A stretch of 64,000 nucleotides of DNA from Aestuariivirga litoralis (GTDB lineage Bacteria > Pseudomonadota > Alphaproteobacteria > Rhizobiales > Aestuariivirgaceae): assembly GCF_015714715.1 (NCBI RefSeq), contig NZ_WAHS01000002.1, positions 372,001 through 436,000 on the forward strand. The letters are read 5' to 3'. Below the pieces are notes generated by a model. That model saw nothing but the letters and a program-made list of their open reading frames with translations. It did no database searches and was not told where the DNA came from. Positions 38,846 to 47,253 of the stretch are shown piece by piece. Made by a program: the position numbers and the translations under genes. Each line of letters opens with the position of its first letter. Within the stretch, counting starts at the first letter, position 1.

Positions 38846-40093
38846 CTAAGCCTGCAGCAACGCTTCGCCCAGGAAGCTGTCACTATTGGCAACCCCCGGA
38901 AGGGCAAAGAAATATCCGCCACCGACCGGCTTAATATATTCCTCGAGCGCCTCGCCATTGAGGCGCTGCTGAATGGCGCGGAAACCCTGGTCGAGGTCTG
39001 ATTGATAGCAAACAAACAGCAAACCCATATCCATCTGGCCGGATTTGCTGAGGCCTGTCGAGTAGTTGTAACCCCGCCGGAGGATGCGGGTCGCCATCGC
39101 CTTGGCGTCGCGCGGATTGGCGAGGCGGATATGGGCATCCGCCGCGATTGCGGATTTGTCGGGCGTAGCCACGAAATCCGGCTCATCCATTTCGCCGGTC
39201 TTGCCGAGCGGTGCTCCGGAATATTTATGCCGGCCGATAATGCGTTCTTGTTCATTCAGCGCGGTGCGGTCCCAGCGCTCGACGAAATTGCGGATGATGC
39301 GCACCACCTGATAGCTGCCGCCTTCGGTCCATTGCGGCTCACCATTTTGGCCGCCCTTGGTCCAGACCAGCTGGGTCATCAGGCTCGCATCACCGTGGGG
39401 CGGATTGGCCGTACCATCCTTGAAGCCCAGATGATTGCGCGGGGTTTCTTCGCCCACGGCGCGCTTGTCCTTTGGCGCGAGGTGGCCTTCCAGCTTCCAG
39501 CGCGCAGCCAAAAGATCTGGCGTGTTCTTGATAATGGCGCGCAGCGCATGCAGCGCCGTTTCCTGCCTATTGGCGCAGAACTGCAGCAAGATATCGCCAT
39601 GGCAAATGCTCGCATCGGGCGAGTCATTCGGGAAACGTTCCATCGGGATCAGCTTGGCGGGCTTGACATTGGCGAGGCCGTAGCGGTCATTAAAGAGGCT
39701 GGCGCCGACTGACACCGTGATGGTCAGCCCATCAGGATACATGGTCTTGCCCAGCATGCCTGAGTCAGGCGGCGGGAATTTCGCATCCACTTCCGGCACC
39801 GGGCCGCCCTTGGTCAGCGTGGTGATCTCGGTGGTGAGCAGGCGGAACAGGCGCTCAAGCCCGGCCCGGTTTTCGGCCACGCAATTGAAAGCCACCAGCA
39901 CACCATAAGGCTGCTGCGGCGTGACGATGCCGGCCTGATAAGTGCCGAAGCAATCATGCACCTCTTCAAGACCGCCGGGACCCGCGGCGGGATCAGGCGT
40001 TTGTGCGTTTGCCACAGCACTGCCCGCGACCGCTGCAAGGCTCGCGGTTGCGGCTTGCAGCAGGCGGCGGCGTGATGTGCCGAAGCTTTTCAA
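38846..40093 (-). CDS. efeB: Deferrochelatase/peroxidase EfeB (Dyp-type)
   Basis: A Dyp-type haem peroxidase of the EfeUOB ferrous iron uptake system, exported folded. 415 residues. The Tat signal TSRRRLLQAATASLAAVAGS is clear; GFKDGTANP carries the GxxDG catalytic Asp, and the proximal His region is DAHIRLANPRD. C-terminal GGGYFFALPG matches EfeB. It begins directly after the efeO stop with no gap. It may oxidise Fe(II) or release iron from haem. Confidence 0.96.
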   Translation of the reverse strand: MKSFGTSRRRLLQAATASLAAVAGSAVANAQTPDPAAGPGGLEEVHDCFGTYQAGIVTPQQPYGVLVAFNCVAENRAGLERLFRLLTTEITTLTKGGPVPEVDAKFPPPDSGMLGKTMYPDGLTITVSVGASLFNDRYGLANVKPAKLIPMERFPNDSPDASICHGDILLQFCANRQETALHALRAIIKNTPDLLAARWKLEGHLAPKDKRAVGEETPRNHLGFKDGTANPPHGDASLMTQLVWTKGGQNGEPQWTEGGSYQVVRIIRNFVERWDRTALNEQERIIGRHKYSGAPLGKTGEMDEPDFVATPDKSAIAADAHIRLANPRDAKAMATRILRRGYNYSTGLSKSGQMDMGLLFVCYQSDLDQGFRAIQQRLNGEALEEYIKPVGGGYFFALPGVANSDSFLGEALLQA

Positions 40094-41212
40094 TTATAGT
40101 CCCAGCGCGCCCGTCAGCTTGGCCAGGTCTTCAGCCAGCGGCGTCAGGGCACCCTTCAGAGCGTTGCGATCATCCTCAGTCAGGGCGGAGTAGGACTTGT
40201 AGCCTTCGCCTTCCTTGTACTTGGCAAGAATGGCATCAACCTTGGTAAAGTTGGCGCTGGTCGCGTCAAGCAAAGCCTTGTCCTTCTTTTCCAGCGGCGC
40301 CTTGATCAGTTCCATGATCTTCTTCGAGCCATCCACATTGGCCTGGAAGTCATAGAGATCAGTGCCGCTGTAACGGTCTTCTTCACCGGAAATCTTGGAC
40401 TTGAACACTTCCTCAATCAGGGCACCGGCACCGGCCACCATGGTGGCGGGCAGAATGTCCATGACGGCGATGCGCGACTGCAGCTCGGTCACATCGACCA
40501 GCAGCTTGTCGGCCAGATCGGAAAGTCCATCAGTCTTCTTTTCGCTGAACAGGCTGAACTCAATCCGGTGGAAGCCGGTCCAGGTCGGGTCCTGTTCCTT
40601 CTTTTCAAAATCATCGGCGCGCGCGTCGATGGCCGGATCGAGATCGCCGAACAATTCGGCCACCGGTTCGATGCGTTCGTAATTCACGCGCACCGGGCCA
40701 AACAGCTTCTGGGCTTCTTCCAGCTTGCCGCCCTTGATGGCAGCGGTGAAAGCGGTGACGTTTTTCACCAGAATGTCCGCTTCGCCCTGGGCATAGGCAC
40801 GATAGGCTTCCACGGCCTTGGTGATTTCAGGATCAACGGCGACTGTCGGCGCGGCAGTGCCGGCCGTGACGGTCAGCTTGCCCTTTGGGTTGGAGAGAAG
40901 ACCGCATGTCATGTCGTAGGTGCCGGCCTTGAGCTTGGGCTTCAAATCCAGCTTGAAGCCGGGGAGAATGTTCTCGCGCTCGAACACAACTTTCACGCCG
41001 TCAAGAATTTCCCATTCCAGCGCTTTCTTGCTGCCATTGACGATGGTGAAGATTTCTTCGCCTTCCTTGATCGAGACATCGTAGGGTTCGCAGCCCTTGT
41101 CGGTCACCGTGATGGTCTGCTGCGCGGGCGCATCTTCAGCGCGCACTTCGGCAATGAAAGCTGCGGCGGTGAGGAGGGCCGCAGCAGACACGGCAAACAG
41201 GTGGCGATTCAT
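40094..41212 (-). CDS. efeO: Iron uptake protein EfeO (cupredoxin plus M75 domain)
   Basis: Periplasmic component of EfeUOB. 372 residues. A Sec signal (MNRHLFAVSAAALLTAAAFI...) is followed by a cupredoxin-like domain (about 28-118) and an imelysin/M75 domain (about 125-372) with the HxxE metal motif in GFHRIEFSLF. The length matches Escherichia coli EfeO. It lies between efeU and efeB in the usual operon order. Confidence 0.96.
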   Translation of the reverse strand: MNRHLFAVSAAALLTAAAFIAEVRAEDAPAQQTITVTDKGCEPYDVSIKEGEEIFTIVNGSKKALEWEILDGVKVVFERENILPGFKLDLKPKLKAGTYDMTCGLLSNPKGKLTVTAGTAAPTVAVDPEITKAVEAYRAYAQGEADILVKNVTAFTAAIKGGKLEEAQKLFGPVRVNYERIEPVAELFGDLDPAIDARADDFEKKEQDPTWTGFHRIEFSLFSEKKTDGLSDLADKLLVDVTELQSRIAVMDILPATMVAGAGALIEEVFKSKISGEEDRYSGTDLYDFQANVDGSKKIMELIKAPLEKKDKALLDATSANFTKVDAILAKYKEGEGYKSYSALTEDDRNALKGALTPLAEDLAKLTGALGL

Positions 41213-41237
41213 GACGGTGACTTTCCCTTGAATGAAT

Positions 41238-42071
41238 TTATGAAACAGGCTTGGGCGCAGGCGCCGGGGACTGCGGCATGAGGAACAGGATCAGTGCTGG
41301 AATGGTGAACAGCAAATAGATGCCGAGCTCGCCCACCTTCGGCGCATCGCGGTAACCGAAGAAGCCACCCAGCAAGACACCGATAAGACTGTCAGACGGC
41401 AGCACATTGGAAAGATCGAAGGCAGTTTCCTGGAATAGGTTCCAGATCCCGGCTTCATGCAGGTGAACCAGCACATTGGCCAGAATGCCGCCCGCCACGA
41501 GGATGATGAAAACGCCGGTCCAGCGGAAGAAGGCACGCATATTGAGTTTCATGCCACCCTTGAACACCGCATAGCCAAGTACAGCAGCACTCAGCAGGCC
41601 CAAGGCAGCCCCGGCAAAAACCGTCCAGTCTGATGCTTGCTGGATAATGGCGATCATGAACACCACCGATTCCAATCCTTCGCGGCCGGTCACGAGGAAA
41701 GCCGTGCCAGCGAGCGGCCAGCTCCAGTTGGAAGTGGACTTCTGCAGCGCTGCATCCACTTTGTCATGCAGCTCTTTCTTGATGGTGCGGCCCACTTTGC
41801 GCATCCAGAAGACCATGGAGATCAGCATGAACACCGCAAACAGGCCCACTGCTGATTCGAACAATTCCTGTTCGGCCTGTGGAAATTCGCTGCCAGTTAT
41901 GGTGATGAGCACACCGATGATTACGCTAACCGCGATGGCGGCAGCCACACCGGCCATGACCGAGGGAAGTGCGGAGCGGCGGCCCGTCTGCACCAGATAA
42001 CTGGATAGGATGCCAACGATCAGTGAGGCTTCAAAACCCTCACGCAACATGATCAGGAAAGCTATGAACAT
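41238..42071 (-). CDS. efeU: Ferrous iron permease EfeU (FTR1 family)
   Basis: The membrane channel of the EfeUOB system, moving oxidised iron across the inner membrane. 277 residues with about seven membrane helices. Two iron-binding motifs are seen: LREGFEASLIVGIL near the N terminus (Phe instead of Leu in REGLE) and GREGLESVVFMIA in the middle. MFIAFLIMLREGFEAS matches the start of known EfeU. I looked for Fur, Irr or RirA boxes upstream and recognised none. Confidence 0.95.
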   Translation of the reverse strand: MFIAFLIMLREGFEASLIVGILSSYLVQTGRRSALPSVMAGVAAAIAVSVIIGVLITITGSEFPQAEQELFESAVGLFAVFMLISMVFWMRKVGRTIKKELHDKVDAALQKSTSNWSWPLAGTAFLVTGREGLESVVFMIAIIQQASDWTVFAGAALGLLSAAVLGYAVFKGGMKLNMRAFFRWTGVFIILVAGGILANVLVHLHEAGIWNLFQETAFDLSNVLPSDSLIGVLLGGFFGYRDAPKVGELGIYLLFTIPALILFLMPQSPAPAPKPVS

Positions 42072-42281: not shown

Positions 42282-42470
42282 CTATGCCCAAGCTACATAG
42301 ATACCCACGACAACCATGGCCACCACGACAGCCAGCAAGCTGAAACCGAGGACGTAACGCACATTATGACCGGTCACACCTTGCCGCACCCGGTTGGTTT
42401 GGCTTGTAGAATGGAGGCCATCTTCCGAGCCGTCACTTTGTGTGGGTCTCGTTTTCAGCTCATTCAGCAT
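42282..42470 (-). CDS. Small single-span membrane protein, stress-promoter linked
   Basis: A 62-residue protein: a polar N-terminal half (LKTRPTQSDGSEDGLHSTSQ), then a conserved-looking RQGVTGHNVRYVLGFSLLAV and a C-terminal membrane helix ending VVVGIYVAWA. Proteins with the RQGVTGHNVRYVL signature recur in Rhizobiales, as I recall, with no known role. ATG 42470 has AAAGGG 8 bases upstream. An exact EcfG-type promoter lies 36-60 bases upstream, so it is probably induced by general stress. Confidence 0.72.
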   Translation of the reverse strand: MLNELKTRPTQSDGSEDGLHSTSQTNRVRQGVTGHNVRYVLGFSLLAVVVAMVVVGIYVAWA

Positions 42471-42505
42471 GTCGCTCACCCTTTCAAAAACCAGTTCGAA
42501 AAATC

Positions 42506-42530
42506 AACGCGACATCGCAGATGAAGTTCC
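42506..42530 (-). promoter_or_regulatory. EcfG (general stress) promoter, exact consensus
   Basis: On the minus strand: GGAAC (42530-42526), 16 bases, CGTT (42509-42506). It matches the Rhizobiales EcfG/RpoE2 consensus exactly and would start transcription about 28 bases before the small membrane protein gene. Confidence 0.7.
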
Positions 42531-42558
42531 TCTCGTCGCCATGCAGCCCGTGACCTCC

Positions 42559-42583
42559 GGAACAATTGCAAGGCGAGCGAGTT
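42559..42583 (+). promoter_or_regulatory. EcfG-like promoter for the DUF892 gene
   Basis: GGAAC (42559-42563), 16 bases, AGTT (42580-42583); one base of the -10 element differs from CGTT. It sits 80 bases upstream of the DUF892 start codon. Confidence 0.5.
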
Positions 42584-42662
42584 GCGAGTCCATGACCAAT
42601 GCGGACACGGCAAGCATGGTCTTTTCAAATCATCAACCGTCACTTTCCAGGAGAAACATCCC

Positions 42663-43298
42663 ATGCCCTCAACATCCACACACTCCACCAAAGCGGCAGG
42701 TGCCGCGAAGAAAACTTCATCAGGCAAGGACAAAGGTCTTGCCGATCTTTTCCTGCACGGCATCAAGGATATCTATTACGCCGAAAAGAAGTTGACCAAG
42801 GCGCTGCCCAAAATGATCAAGGCGGCAAAGTCGCAGGATTTGATCGACGCTCTCACCAGCCATCTGAAGGAAACCGAAGGGCATGTCACGAAAGTGGAGC
42901 AAGTGTTTGCATTGCTCGACATGGCACCCAAGGCCGTGAAATGCGACGCCATTGATGGCATCGTAGCGGAAGCCGAAGAAATCCTGAAGGATTTCGGCAA
43001 GACTTCTGCCGCTGATGCAGCGATCATTTTCTCCGGCCAGGCGGCGGAGCACTATGAAATCACCCGCTATGGCAGCCTGCGCACTTTTGCCGAGGTGCTG
43101 GGCTATGACAAGGCCTCGAACATCCTGCAGTCCATCCTGGATCAGGAAAAGGCCGCTGATAAGAAGCTCTCAGAAATTGCCGAAGACCGGGTGGATTATG
43201 CAGCTGCCGGCAGCGACTCATATGAAGATGGCAACGTGCTGTCTGACGGTGAGCCACGCAAGGAAAAGGGCGCGATCAACTGGCGCCTGTGGCAATAA
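42663..43298 (+). CDS. DUF892 (YciE-like) ferritin-like protein
   Basis: A 211-residue protein of the YciE/DUF892 family, a four-helix ferritin-like bundle often induced by stress. The polar Lys/Ala-rich first 25 residues are followed by LADLFLHGIKDIYYAEKKLT, LKETEGHVTKVEQVFALLD and GQAAEHYEITRYGSLRTFAE, carrying the Glu/His metal-ligand pattern. ATG 42663 has AGGAGAAACATCCC upstream; the open frame extends to 42582 without family residues. A terminator follows. Confidence 0.92.
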   Translation: MPSTSTHSTKAAGAAKKTSSGKDKGLADLFLHGIKDIYYAEKKLTKALPKMIKAAKSQDLIDALTSHLKETEGHVTKVEQVFALLDMAPKAVKCDAIDGIVAEAEEILKDFGKTSAADAAIIFSGQAAEHYEITRYGSLRTFAEVLGYDKASNILQSILDQEKAADKKLSEIAEDRVDYAAAGSDSYEDGNVLSDGEPRKEKGAINWRLWQ

Positions 43299-43321
43299 CT
43301 GATCAACGATAGCAACCACAC

Positions 43322-43353
43322 AGGGGATGCGGCGAAAGCTCCATCCCCTTTTT
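43322..43353 (+). terminator. Intrinsic terminator of the DUF892 gene
   Basis: AGGGGATG (43322-43329), 12-base loop, CATCCCCT (43342-43349), followed by a T run to 43353. Confidence 0.85.
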
Positions 43354-43393
43354 GTTGCGCCATCAGGCGCTTCTCGAATTCATGATTTATTTC

Positions 43394-43419
43394 GGAACTG
43401 AGGGCGCGTTGGGGTCGTT
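43394..43419 (+). promoter_or_regulatory. EcfG (general stress) promoter for the hydrophilin gene
   Basis: GGAAC (43394-43398), 17 bases, CGTT (43416-43419): exact consensus elements at an allowed spacing, about 57 bases before the start codon. Confidence 0.65.
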
Positions 43420-43476
43420 CACCCAGGCAAGCAGCAACACCGCGCTTGCATCACCAACCCCAATCAGGAGTCCACA

Positions 43477-43671
43477 ATGCCAAATCAACAGCATTCAAGC
43501 GCCGGAAAAAAGGATGAAGGCGTTCGCCGCAACGACCAAGGCGAATTCACCAAACAGCAAGAGCAGAAGCATCAAGGCGATGGCCAGCAAGGCGGCGTGC
43601 ATCGTGATGGTGGCGGCCAACAAGGTGGCCATTCCGGCACCGACCGGCAGCAAGGTTCTGACAAGCGATGA
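43477..43671 (+). CDS. Small Gln/Gly-rich hydrophilin-like protein
   Basis: A 64-residue, very polar, probably unfolded protein: MPNQQHSSAGKKDEGVRRND, then Gln/Gly/His-rich repeats (QKHQGDGQQGG, DGGGQQGGH). There are no hydrophobic segments. AGGAG lies 6 bases before ATG 43477, and an exact EcfG promoter lies upstream. The make-up resembles hydrophilins or KGG-type stress proteins that protect against drying, but the link is by composition only. Confidence 0.7.
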   Translation: MPNQQHSSAGKKDEGVRRNDQGEFTKQQEQKHQGDGQQGGVHRDGGGQQGGHSGTDRQQGSDKR

Positions 43672-43677
43672 AGAACG

Positions 43678-43702
43678 GCGGCCCCGGTTTCATCGGGGCC
43701 GC
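43678..43702. terminator. Hairpin between convergent small genes
   Basis: GCGGCCCCG (43678-43686), 7-base loop, CGGGGCCGC (43694-43702): a perfect 9-bp stem, 10 bases before the DUF3309 stop, with a weak T-rich tail. It probably ends both transcripts. Confidence 0.65.
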
Positions 43703-43712
43703 TCTCTGTCGA

Positions 43713-43865
43713 TTAGATGCGTCCCATGAGCAGCAAGACCACCAGAATGACAAGGATGAGACCTACGCCGCCGGATGGACGGTAGCCCCAGTCGCGGCTG
43801 TAACCCCATGTAGGCAAGGCACCGAGCAGAGCCAGAACAACAATGATGATCAGAATGGTGGACAC
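43713..43865 (-). CDS. DUF3309 small membrane protein
   Basis: A 50-residue protein: N-terminal hydrophobic stretch STILIIIVVLALLGALP, then TWGYSRDWGYRPSGGVG and a second hydrophobic stretch LILVILVVLLLMG. TWGYSRxWGYxPSGGxG is the signature of DUF3309, a family of tiny membrane proteins common in Proteobacteria and often stress-linked. It starts with GTG 43865, with AGGAG 9 bases upstream, just after an exact EcfG promoter. Function unknown. Confidence 0.88.
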   Translation of the reverse strand: MSTILIIIVVLALLGALPTWGYSRDWGYRPSGGVGLILVILVVLLLMGRI

Positions 43866-43892
43866 GATTTTTCACTCCTGTGTTTCGATCAC

Positions 43893-43917
43893 AACGCAGG
43901 CATGAGCCGCTTGTTCC
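43893..43917 (-). promoter_or_regulatory. EcfG (general stress) promoter for DUF3309, exact consensus
   Basis: On the minus strand: GGAAC (43917-43913), 16 bases, CGTT (43896-43893). Its -35 element is the left arm of the palindrome TTGTTCCGGCGGAACAA (43911-43927). Confidence 0.75.
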
Positions 43918-43920
43918 GGC

Positions 43921-43945
43921 GGAACAAATGCCGCACCCCGCTGTT
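43921..43945 (+). promoter_or_regulatory. EcfG-type promoter for ku-ligD
   Basis: GGAAC (43921-43925), 16 bases, TGTT (43942-43945), one base off CGTT. Only 3 bases separate its -35 element from that of the divergent DUF3309 promoter. The expected transcript starts about 27 bases before the ku ATG. Confidence 0.6.
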
Positions 43946-43978
43946 GTCCCACAGGACAATCAAGTGAGTGAGGGCGTC

Positions 43979-44815
43979 ATGCCAGGCAGGACATTCTGGA
44001 AAGGCCATTTGCGTTTGGCATTGGTGACCATCCCGGTGCAAATGGTGACCGCCACCAAGACCGATGCTGAAATTCACTTCCACCAGATCGACCGCGACAG
44101 CAAGAAACGCATCAAATATGTAAAGACCGCACCGGGCGTCGGCGAAGTGGCCAATGAAAACATCGTCAAGGGTTTTGAAGTCGAGCCTGGCAATTATGTG
44201 TTGCTGGAAGATGACGAGATTGATTCGCTGAAACTTGAAACCCGCCACACGATTGAGCTCACTGAATTTGTCGATGTTTGCGCCATTGATCCGCTTTATT
44301 TCGACCGGCCGTATTATCTTCTGCCAGATGGCGATGTGGCCGAAGAAGGCTTCCGCGTGATCCGCGATGCGCTGCGCGACGAAGGCAAGGCTGGCATTGG
44401 CCAGCTCACTTTGCGCGGTAAGGAAAACCTGATTTCATTGAAAGCCAGCGGTGCGGGCCTGCTGCTGGAAACGTTGCGCTATGAAAGTGAGATCAAGGAA
44501 GCCGATGACGTGTTCGCCGGCATAGGCAAATCCAAACTGAAACCCGAACTCACCGAAATGGCGCGCGATCTGATCGCCAAACGCACGACTAATTTTGATC
44601 CTTCCAAATTCAAGAACCATTATGCGGCCGCTTTGCGCGAACTGGTCAATGCCAAGCTGAAGCATGGCAAGGTGAAGGTGGATGACAATGAAGAAAAATC
44701 CGCCCCCGTGATCGACTTCATGGAGGCCCTGCGCAATTCCGTCGGCAAAGGCGAGAAGAAGAAAGCGGCGGCACCCGCAAAAACTGCAGCCAAGAAACGC
44801 GCCAAGGCGTCGTGA
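43979..44815 (+). CDS. ku: Non-homologous end-joining protein Ku
   Basis: Homodimeric ring protein that binds broken DNA ends and recruits LigD. 278 residues. MPGRTFWKGHLRLALVTIPV opens the Ku core beta-barrel; HFHQIDRDSKKRIKYVK, VLLEDDEIDSLKLETRHTIE and RPYYLLPDGDVAEEGFRVI are typical. The C-terminal tail is Lys/Ala-rich (KKKAAAPAKTAAKKRAKAS) and may bind DNA. ATG 43979 has GAGGG close upstream. Its stop overlaps the ligD start as TGATG. Confidence 0.95.
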   Translation: MPGRTFWKGHLRLALVTIPVQMVTATKTDAEIHFHQIDRDSKKRIKYVKTAPGVGEVANENIVKGFEVEPGNYVLLEDDEIDSLKLETRHTIELTEFVDVCAIDPLYFDRPYYLLPDGDVAEEGFRVIRDALRDEGKAGIGQLTLRGKENLISLKASGAGLLLETLRYESEIKEADDVFAGIGKSKLKPELTEMARDLIAKRTTNFDPSKFKNHYAAALRELVNAKLKHGKVKVDDNEEKSAPVIDFMEALRNSVGKGEKKKAAAPAKTAAKKRAKAS

Positions 44816-47253
44816 TGCGCGGCGGCATGCTGGCGGAATATGGCCGGAAGCGGAATTTCTCTGCCACCTCCGAGCCCAAGCCCGCGCACAAAAAACAAAA
44901 AGGCCGCAGCTTTGTCGTGCAACGCCACTGGGCTACACGGGAGCATTTTGATCTACGCCTTGAGATGAATGGCGTGATGGTGAGCTGGGCGGTGACACGC
45001 GGCCCCAGCGCCAACCCGGCCGACAAACGCCTGGCGGTGAAGGTGGAAGACCACCCTGTTTCCTATTCGGATTTTGAAGGCACGATCCCCAAGGGCCAAT
45101 ATGGTGGTGGCACCGTGATGGTGTGGGACCGGGGCGATTACACCCCGCTGGTCGATGATCTCGATGAAGCGTTGCGCGGGGGTAAGCTGAAAATCGAATT
45201 TCACGGCGAGCGCATGAAGGGCGGCTACGCACTTGTGCGCATGCATACGCGCGACAAGTCGCATGACAATTGGCTGCTGATCAAGGAGCGCGATGAATAT
45301 GCGGTGGGCAGCAGTAATCTTCCCGGCGAACACCTCACCAGTGTAAAGACTGGCCGCAACCGCGATGAGATCGCGGGCGGCACGCAAGTCTGGAAGACCA
45401 CGCCGACCAAAGGTGCCAGCAAGGAGCGTGCGGCCTTTGTGAAGCCGATGCTGTGCAAGCTGGTGGACGCGCCGCCCGATGGTGCGGCCTGGCTGCATGA
45501 AGACAAGTACGATGGCTACCGCATCCAGATCGTGAAGAATGGCGACACGATCCGCCTCTATAGCCGCGAGGGTTTGGACTGGACGGAGAAATTTCCCTCC
45601 ATCACAAAATCCGCTGCCAAGCTGAAGGCGGTTTCAGCCATCATCGATGGCGAGGCGGTTGTGTTCAACAAGAGCAAGGTCAGTGACTTTGGACAATTTG
45701 TTGCAGCACTGAAAGAGTCTCCAGCGCAGATTGAATACATGGCCTTCGATGCGCTGTTTTACGACGGCGCAGATTTGCGCCGTGAGAAACTGAGCGCCCG
45801 CAAGCTGGTGCTGGAAAAGCTGTTGCCCGCGAAGGATAAATACTTGCATCTCTCGCCCTTCACTCTGGGTGATGGCGCCAAGCGTTTCGCCAAAAGCCTG
45901 AAGGACGAGACCGAAGGCATCGTCTCCAAGCGCCTCGATTCAAAATATATTTCCGGGCGCGGTGATAGTTGGGTGAAGGCCAAGCATGGTACGCGCGAAG
46001 ATGTGGTGGTGGTTGGTTACACGCCTTCGACCAAAGGCCGGGCCTTTGGGGCTTTGGTGTCTGCAGTGGAGAACAAGAAGGCATTGGACTATTCTGGCCG
46101 CATCGGAACCGGTTTCAGCGTGGTGGAACAGAAGCGCCTTCTTGAAATACTGAAGGGCTTGGAACGCAAAGGCCCGCCGCCATCCTTGCGGAACGCACAG
46201 CTTGCACCGCGCGGCACCAAATGGGTTCAACCGGAATTGCGCGTTGAAGTCGCCATGGCGGGCTGGACGCCGGACCATCAATTGCGCCATCCTCGCTATC
46301 TGGCTTTGCGCGCAATGCCTGAAACGAAAGCCCCGGTGATGAAAGCTGAACCACCGAAGAAACCGAAAGCCGTTTCCAAATCCTCCACGCCTTTGGTGAT
46401 CACCCATGGTGACCGCGTGGTGTTTCCCGATGCCAAGATCACCAAGCAGCAGATCGCCGATTATTATGATGAAGTGGCCGAGCTCGTCCTGCCGCATCTG
46501 GCAGGCCGCCCGGTGAGCTTCGTGCGCGCACCCGAATCCATCGCCAAGGAAACCTTCTTTCAGCGCCACGCACTGAACGGCATGCGCGCCGGCATCGAGC
46601 GCGTGCCGGACCCGGAAGGCAAGCATGATGACTTCCTCGCCATCGCCGACAAATCCGGCCTGCGCAGCTGTGCACAATTCGGCATCGTGGAATTCCACGG
46701 CTGGGGATCGCATCTTCCGCATCTCGACAAGCCGGACCGCGTAGTCTTCGATCTTGACCCAGACGAGAATGTGGATTTTGCCGAAGTGAAACGCGCCGCC
46801 TTGCAATTGCGCGATATGCTGAAGGAGATTGGCCTTGCCAGCTGGCCGCTGCTGAGCGGCGGCAAAGGCGTGCATATCATTGCACCTCTCGATGGCACGC
46901 AGGACTGGGACATGATTGGCACTTTCACCAAGGGCATCGCCCGTGGCCTCGCCGAGCAGGACCCCAAGCATTTCATCGCCACCGCTTCAAAAGCGCAACG
47001 CAGCGGCAAGATCTATGTCGATTGGCTGCGCAACAAGATGACAGCAACGGCGATTGTGCCCTGGTCACTGCGGGCTCGCGCCACCGCCAGTGTGGCAGTG
47101 CCGATCACTTGGGAGGAGCTGCCGAATTTCAAATCAGCGGCGCGCTACACGATCAAGGATCACCCCAGCACGAATGCCTGGCGTGGTTTCTTCACTAAGA
47201 AACAGGCGATCCCCGCTGGCGCGATTGCCTTCCTGAAAAGCCGTTGGCCGTAA
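44815..47253 (+). CDS. ligD: Multifunctional DNA ligase LigD (phosphoesterase, ligase, polymerase)
   Basis: ATP-dependent end-joining ligase that works with Ku. 812 residues, domain order phosphoesterase, ligase, polymerase as in Pseudomonas. The 3'-phosphoesterase (about 20-170) has VQRHWATREHFDLRLEMNG; the ligase (about 205-490) has the KxDG nucleotidyl Lys in HEDKYDGYRIQ; the polymerase/primase (about 525-800) has VVFDLDPDE with the catalytic Asp pair and LLSGGKGVHII. ATG 44815 overlaps the ku stop; ATG 44827 is possible. Its stop nearly meets the convergent reductase gene. Confidence 0.96.
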   Translation: MRGGMLAEYGRKRNFSATSEPKPAHKKQKGRSFVVQRHWATREHFDLRLEMNGVMVSWAVTRGPSANPADKRLAVKVEDHPVSYSDFEGTIPKGQYGGGTVMVWDRGDYTPLVDDLDEALRGGKLKIEFHGERMKGGYALVRMHTRDKSHDNWLLIKERDEYAVGSSNLPGEHLTSVKTGRNRDEIAGGTQVWKTTPTKGASKERAAFVKPMLCKLVDAPPDGAAWLHEDKYDGYRIQIVKNGDTIRLYSREGLDWTEKFPSITKSAAKLKAVSAIIDGEAVVFNKSKVSDFGQFVAALKESPAQIEYMAFDALFYDGADLRREKLSARKLVLEKLLPAKDKYLHLSPFTLGDGAKRFAKSLKDETEGIVSKRLDSKYISGRGDSWVKAKHGTREDVVVVGYTPSTKGRAFGALVSAVENKKALDYSGRIGTGFSVVEQKRLLEILKGLERKGPPPSLRNAQLAPRGTKWVQPELRVEVAMAGWTPDHQLRHPRYLALRAMPETKAPVMKAEPPKKPKAVSKSSTPLVITHGDRVVFPDAKITKQQIADYYDEVAELVLPHLAGRPVSFVRAPESIAKETFFQRHALNGMRAGIERVPDPEGKHDDFLAIADKSGLRSCAQFGIVEFHGWGSHLPHLDKPDRVVFDLDPDENVDFAEVKRAALQLRDMLKEIGLASWPLLSGGKGVHIIAPLDGTQDWDMIGTFTKGIARGLAEQDPKHFIATASKAQRSGKIYVDWLRNKMTATAIVPWSLRARATASVAVPITWEELPNFKSAARYTIKDHPSTNAWRGFFTKKQAIPAGAIAFLKSRWP

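Follow-up and report, generated by a model that had tools for sequence, protein, structure and literature searches.

Stress-inducible non-homologous end joining (NHEJ) was reportedly described for Sinorhizobium meliloti by Dupuy and colleagues in 2019, with some ku and lig genes placed under RpoE2, a sigma factor of the EcfG type. Closely comparable systems come from two bacteria of another order. In Sphingopyxis granuli TFA, ku-ligD belongs to the EcfG regulon and is under the general stress response, with the promoter pattern GGAAC-N16-CGTT and a flexible -10 element (PMC7083833), and in Sphingomonas melonis Fr1, ku is EcfG-dependent, with the EcfG motif lying 30 bases upstream of it (PMC6599016). 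Given these published cases, the kind of link between EcfG and ku is already known. In Mesorhizobium loti, three of four ku homologues are induced by heat, with no sigma factor assigned to them in the accessible part of the report (PMC3989490). A comparative study calls it unclear when NHEJ is the preferred mode of break repair, and the words 'sigma' and 'promoter' are absent from its main text (PMC7719229). No order-wide survey of EcfG control of NHEJ was found in the open-licence literature. Here we describe a locus of Aestuariivirga litoralis, from the same order as S. meliloti, that occupies positions 42,282 to 47,253 of a stretch of 64,000 nucleotides (the window; contig NZ_WAHS01000002.1, positions 372,001 to 436,000). 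At this locus, ku and ligD stand among genes for small proteins behind a cluster of EcfG-type promoter-like sites. Our comparison with related genomes makes it very likely that the locus is an island of the EcfG regulon, and suggests that, across much of one order of the Alphaproteobacteria, the general stress response probably drives ku. The order-wide extent of EcfG sites before ku and the tiny membrane partners described below are useful additions to the known systems.

The locus differs from the described systems in several respects. S. meliloti is reported to have several ku/ligD sets, whereas a single Ku gene was found in the source genome. Within the genus, ku is accessory, with a match in 7 of the 37 genomes searched, the source genome included. 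S. granuli has two EcfG paralogues, and the accessible part of its report makes no mention of DUF3309 or of a compact island (PMC7083833); for S. melonis, the corresponding text does not describe the neighbours of ku (PMC6599016). The genes and sites of the A. litoralis island are collected in Table 1.

Table 1. Genes and EcfG-type sites of the island (positions within the 64,000-nucleotide window; aa, amino acids).
Feature	Positions	Strand	Basis or spacing
Single-helix membrane protein, 65 aa, ARQG-x5-VRYVL family	42282..42479	-	family comparison
DUF892 protein, 211 aa	42663..43298	+	Pfam PF05974, E 9.5e-53, 178.9 bits (cut-off 23.7)
Hydrophilin-like open reading frame (ORF), 64 aa, Gly/Gln-rich, orphan	43477..43671	+	composition
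DUF3309 small membrane protein, 50 aa	43713..43865	-	Pfam PF11752, E 1.1e-24, 86.8 bits (cut-off 22.3)
ku, NHEJ end-binding protein, 278 aa	43979..44815	+	PF02735, 142.5 bits (cut-off 25); TIGR02772, 285.8 bits (cut-off 150)
ligD, DNA ligase D	44812..47253	+	Pfam; TIGR02776, TIGR02777, TIGR02778 and TIGR02779 over cut-off
EcfG-type site, exact, for 65-aa protein	42506..42530	-	26 bases to GTG 42479
EcfG-type site, one -10 base changed (AGTT), for DUF892	42559..42583	+	79 bases to ATG 42663
EcfG-type site, exact, N17, for hydrophilin-like ORF	43394..43419	+	57 bases to ATG 43477
EcfG-type site, exact, for DUF3309	43893..43917	-	27 bases to start 43865; -35 box 3 bp from that of ku
EcfG-type site, one -10 base changed (TGTT), for ku-ligD	43921..43945	+	33 bases to ATG 43979

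An earlier note, made from the window alone, had proposed three exact matches to GGAAC-N16/17-CGTT and two matches with one changed base, each 20-80 bases before a gene. Our scan returned all five at the same coordinates, each facing a gene, with 26-79 bases between the end of the site and the start codon. The window holds no further exact matches, so the three in the island are the full set, and 5 of its 24 sites with at most one mismatch fall within the 1.44 kb of the island in the proposed orientation. The ligD frame overlaps ku by 4 bases and has no EcfG-type site of its own. The note had further placed Ku-LigD and the small stress proteins under the PhyR-NepR-EcfG response, and this proposal is supported by the comparison, as the regulators are present in the genome and the sites recur before the same genes in others.

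The regulators lie together at about 1717663-1719367 of contig C1, where phyR (minus strand) is followed by nepR and a gene for an extracytoplasmic function (ECF) sigma factor (both plus strand) and then by a PAS/HWE histidine kinase gene. NepR scores over cut-off, as does PhyR in both NCBIfam and Pfam, and PhyR also matches solved PhyR structures. An exact EcfG site precedes nepR-ecfG, and the 19.5-kb regulatory locus (L033; L, G and f numbers are our handles for loci, genomes and families) contains seven exact sites in all. At L033:12617-12671, two small genes, which we take to be DUF883-like, carry divergent exact sites with their -35 boxes 5 bp apart.

Sites before ku were counted across the order in a set made up of the ku of the window, 18 others, 30 loci and 40 hand-picked loci (one per genome, chosen without looking at motifs). 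Three of these 89 were dropped as duplicates, leaving 86 ku genes from 80 genomes. Apart from the first 19, the set represents at most 70 entries among the matches listed, and kinship was handled only through a family tally. An exact sense site lies within 300 bp upstream of the Ku domain in 43/86 genes, an antisense site in 7/86, and each of five control motifs in 0-1/86. Within 150 bp, the exact sense site is found before 41 of the 86 genes (41/80 genomes, 13/18 families; control motifs 0-1), and 60/86 have a sense site with at most one mismatch (control motifs 1-4). The distance from the end of an exact site to the domain is 21-118 bases, and 60-79 bases in 23 of the 41. This signal fades with distance from the order: exact sites precede ku in 3/25 cases in other orders of the class (15/25 with at most one mismatch) and in 0/35 in other classes of the phylum (1/35).

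The scan of related genomes that the earlier note had suggested finds the same type of site before ku and also before DUF3309, where the exact sense site occurs in 7 of 30 cases within 150 bp and in 11 of 30 within 300 bp. Upstream of DUF892 it occurs in 14/30 at both distances, with no exact matches for the control motifs. The recA gene served as a control. Four recA loci were left out, L181 at first (when 1/29 had an exact site within 300 bp) and, on a recheck, L179, L186 and L193 as well (flanks cut), and among the remainder the exact sense site is found in 0/26 within 150 bp and in 1/26 within 300 bp.

Chance coincidence is an extremely improbable explanation for the cluster of sites, even though some of the counts would allow it. 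The arithmetic behind the earlier estimate of about one motif match per 65 kb, with all bases equally used, is right. Dinucleotide shuffles give a mean of 0.63 exact sites per window, and 5 of 100 shuffled windows reach three, so the site count alone is weak evidence. The genome as a whole has no excess of the motif (50 exact matches, against 139 for the reversed pattern); genome-wide enrichment was therefore dropped as an argument, and the evidence is carried by position and clustering. None of 300 windows from a first-order Markov simulation placed three exact sites inside 1.5 kb, and sites recur before these genes in other genomes. Sorted with a rough gene call, the 50 genomic matches comprise 29 before a gene, 16 within genes and 5 in neither position; the site of the hydrophilin-like ORF was counted under the last heading because the gene caller missed this ORF. 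The island could also be driven by a different ECF sigma factor that uses a GGAAC-type -35 box, since such boxes are common to several ECF groups. We regard this as very unlikely, as the same site, including its CGTT box, stands before nepR-ecfG, and as it is only in the Alphaproteobacteria, the class to which EcfG is described as exclusive (PMC3892343), that ku often has a site upstream.

It is also conceivable, but unlikely, that Ku-LigD is made constitutively from a housekeeping promoter, with the EcfG site adding little or being a relic. The site before ku has a changed -10 base, and an exact site is missing from the last 150 bp in 45 of the 86 ku loci of the order. By contrast, the 60 genes that keep a sense site at one mismatch or fewer far outnumber those found with control motifs, and the ku of S. 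melonis is EcfG-dependent although its site departs from CGTT (PMC6599016). Several observations nevertheless weigh against reading the locus as an EcfG island: in addition to the missing genome-wide excess and the ku genes with no exact site, the DUF892 site, like that of ku, is one -10 base off, 26/86 ku genes have no site even at one mismatch, and the hydrophilin-like ORF has no relatives in 45 other genomes. Exact sites before ku are absent in families f18 (0/8), f2 (0/5), f5 (0/2), f40 and f41 (0/1 each), and rare in f23 (1/7) and f34 (2/11). One ku of f23 (G284) shares 99% identity with a ku from Rhizobium sp. K102, and this Rhizobium-like family, as sampled here, is a less typical case than many related ones.

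With EcfG control as the preferred reading, a course of events can be proposed for the island. The partner switch of PhyR, NepR and EcfG is an established mechanism of these families. Under stress, PhyR would take NepR off the sigma factor EcfG, and RNA polymerase with EcfG would then start at five promoters within 1.5 kb. Leftward transcription would yield the 65-aa membrane protein and the DUF3309 protein, and rightward transcription the DUF892 protein, the hydrophilin-like ORF and the ku-ligD operon. Both end-joining proteins would thereby be made in stressed, slowly growing cells, in which, judging from what is known of these families, breaks may often have to be joined without a second copy of the chromosome.

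The arrangement of the promoters before ku is itself distinctive. In the island, the sites of DUF3309 and ku stand back to back, forming GTTCC-GGC-GGAAC at 43913-43925. Given the 3 bp between the two -35 boxes, two polymerases probably cannot sit there together, and the geometry suggests a single shared entry point for EcfG. In two members of the same genus (L066 and L067), ku is instead back to back with a gene of the 65-aa family, with gaps of 0 and 2 bp and one mismatch in the site on the membrane-protein side. Of the ku genes compared in the class, 64 keep the GGAAC box intact in a site that has no more than one mismatch; in seven of them a reversed GTTCC lies within 10 bp upstream of this box, against 1.4 expected. 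L068 and L074 cover the same ku-ku intergenic region from opposite ends, which leaves six independent cases. A back-to-back promoter pair with a divergent gene is thus a frequent feature of ku. Separately, the EcfG motif is partly self-complementary (GGAACG and CGTTCC), so a single stretch can be read as a site both ways. Such stretches occur at L068/L074 (genome G055), L230:1052-1078 and L243:16127-16154; the one in G055 separates two divergent ku genes and has a mismatch in one direction.

The 65-aa protein belongs to a single-helix family with no entry above cut-off in the databases searched: its match to PF07963 (N_methyl) reaches 17.3 bits, below the cut-off of 21.2, its NCBIfam match is far below cut-off, and PHROGs gives none. 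Six more copies were found in 5 of 45 other relatives, and the core R-x-GVTG-x-x-VRYVL is invariant in all seven sequences. Three of these seven have an exact site upstream, three a site with one mismatch and one has none. In a profile search, 37 of 297 genomes of the order had a member. Within 250 bp upstream, examined at 30 of the 38 places listed, an exact sense site is present in 9/30 and one with at most one mismatch in 15/30, with controls at 0 exact and 0-2 at one mismatch; L354 and L361, which resemble another protein, were excluded from the profile and retained in these counts. When ku loci were scanned with the profile (E <=0.1), a family member was divergent to ku at 4 of the 86 upstream loci (L066, L067, L108 and L126). 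Of these, L067 is not an independent match because it is itself in the profile, and at L108 only the gene for the membrane protein has an exact site. The family also appeared in 2 of 40 neighbourhoods of ku (L218, on the same strand just upstream of ku, and L224, about 3 kb from it), and about 4 kb from a ku in G171; the same scan of recA loci gave 0/30. Two loci found via the 65-aa protein, L368 and L369, have it directly before ku on the same strand, with no site in the 900 bp scanned. A tblastn search of plasmids with an ARQG protein gave no match. Overall, members of this family carry EcfG sites and repeatedly adjoin ku.

Other members of the island recur near ku less regularly. At least 10 of the 88 DUF3309-bearing genomes, as read by eye from the tables, have DUF3309 and a listed ku no more than 10 kb apart (G000, G053, G070, G139, G146, G165, G171, G190, G210 and G228; six in family f34). 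In G053, a stretch of 4.5 kb carries ku on one strand and both DUF892 and DUF3309 on the opposite one. The 40 neighbourhoods, each of 20 kb, comprise one for each genus that the list covered, with one more from the own genus, and were selected after the DUF3309 table was known and before that of DUF892. DUF892 is strong in three of them (L211, L224 and L247) and weak in two, and DUF3309 is present in L218 and more weakly in L237. These numbers rule out a larger fixed island or cassette, and the members instead recur as a mosaic. The neighbourhoods hold 62 EcfG sites where 40 permuted motifs average 10, a count that we do not rely on because one permutation reached 46. Clustering of neighbouring ORFs grouped DUF892 from six loci (window included), an ORF from four loci that is presumably CsbD-like, and one from 12 loci that we take to be SDR-like.

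A still smaller protein accompanies some of these genes. The ku closest in sequence within the genus, that of G013 (60%), is preceded by an exact site and a 26-aa ORF, MGRGILLWLIGVPIPVIILLALFFHH. Membrane peptides of this 26-aa type (GRGILLWLIGVPIPVIILL...; GRGILLWL) occur at L060:2473, L147:2733, L234:9510, L045:2745, L248:2059 and L272:2466. They stand before ku in G013 and G223 (L147, L234), near two DUF892 genes (L248, L272) and, elsewhere in the source genome, behind an exact EcfG site (L045). A tempting but unlikely reading sees the ARQG-x5-VRYVL proteins as dedicated partners of alphaproteobacterial end joining that might, for example, tether Ku or the ends of a break to the membrane in dormant cells. 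Such a role would fit their ties to ku in several families, through abutting divergent EcfG promoters or same-strand neighbourhood, and would place DUF3309 and the 26-aa GRGILLWL peptide in the same module. The island may also have grown by insertion between an ancestral pair of ARQG-protein and ku genes, a weak idea because the Ku proteins of G012 and G032, which show the pair, are only 42% and 39% identical to that of the window.

The gene labels DUF892, DUF3309, Ku and LigD given in the earlier note all hold, with Pfam scores over cut-off. The term hydrophilin, which denotes proteins of Gly-rich, strongly hydrophilic composition, fits the 64-aa ORF in its composition (22% Gly, grand average of hydropathy -2.1) and finds no backing in family membership, as Pfam, NCBIfam and PHROGs place it in no family. 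The DUF892 protein is presumably ferritin-like. LigD has the domain order phosphoesterase, ligase, polymerase, and we take the KYDG of its translation to be the ligase-type K-x-D-G motif. To the left of the island, the minus strand at 38846-42071 holds genes for an FTR1 iron permease and imelysin/cupredoxin proteins (Pfam) and a 415-aa ORF, a set that we take to be EfeUOB-like and that has no exact EcfG site. Beside the general-stress locus, L033:2746-11217 is an open frame of 2823 aa, which presumably encodes a protein resembling a cyclic glucan synthase. Plasmid records with relatives of Ku number 696 (tblastn), and on one plasmid of Paracoccus sediminicola, typed as mobilizable (L381), ku-ligD is flanked by catalase and PRC-barrel genes.

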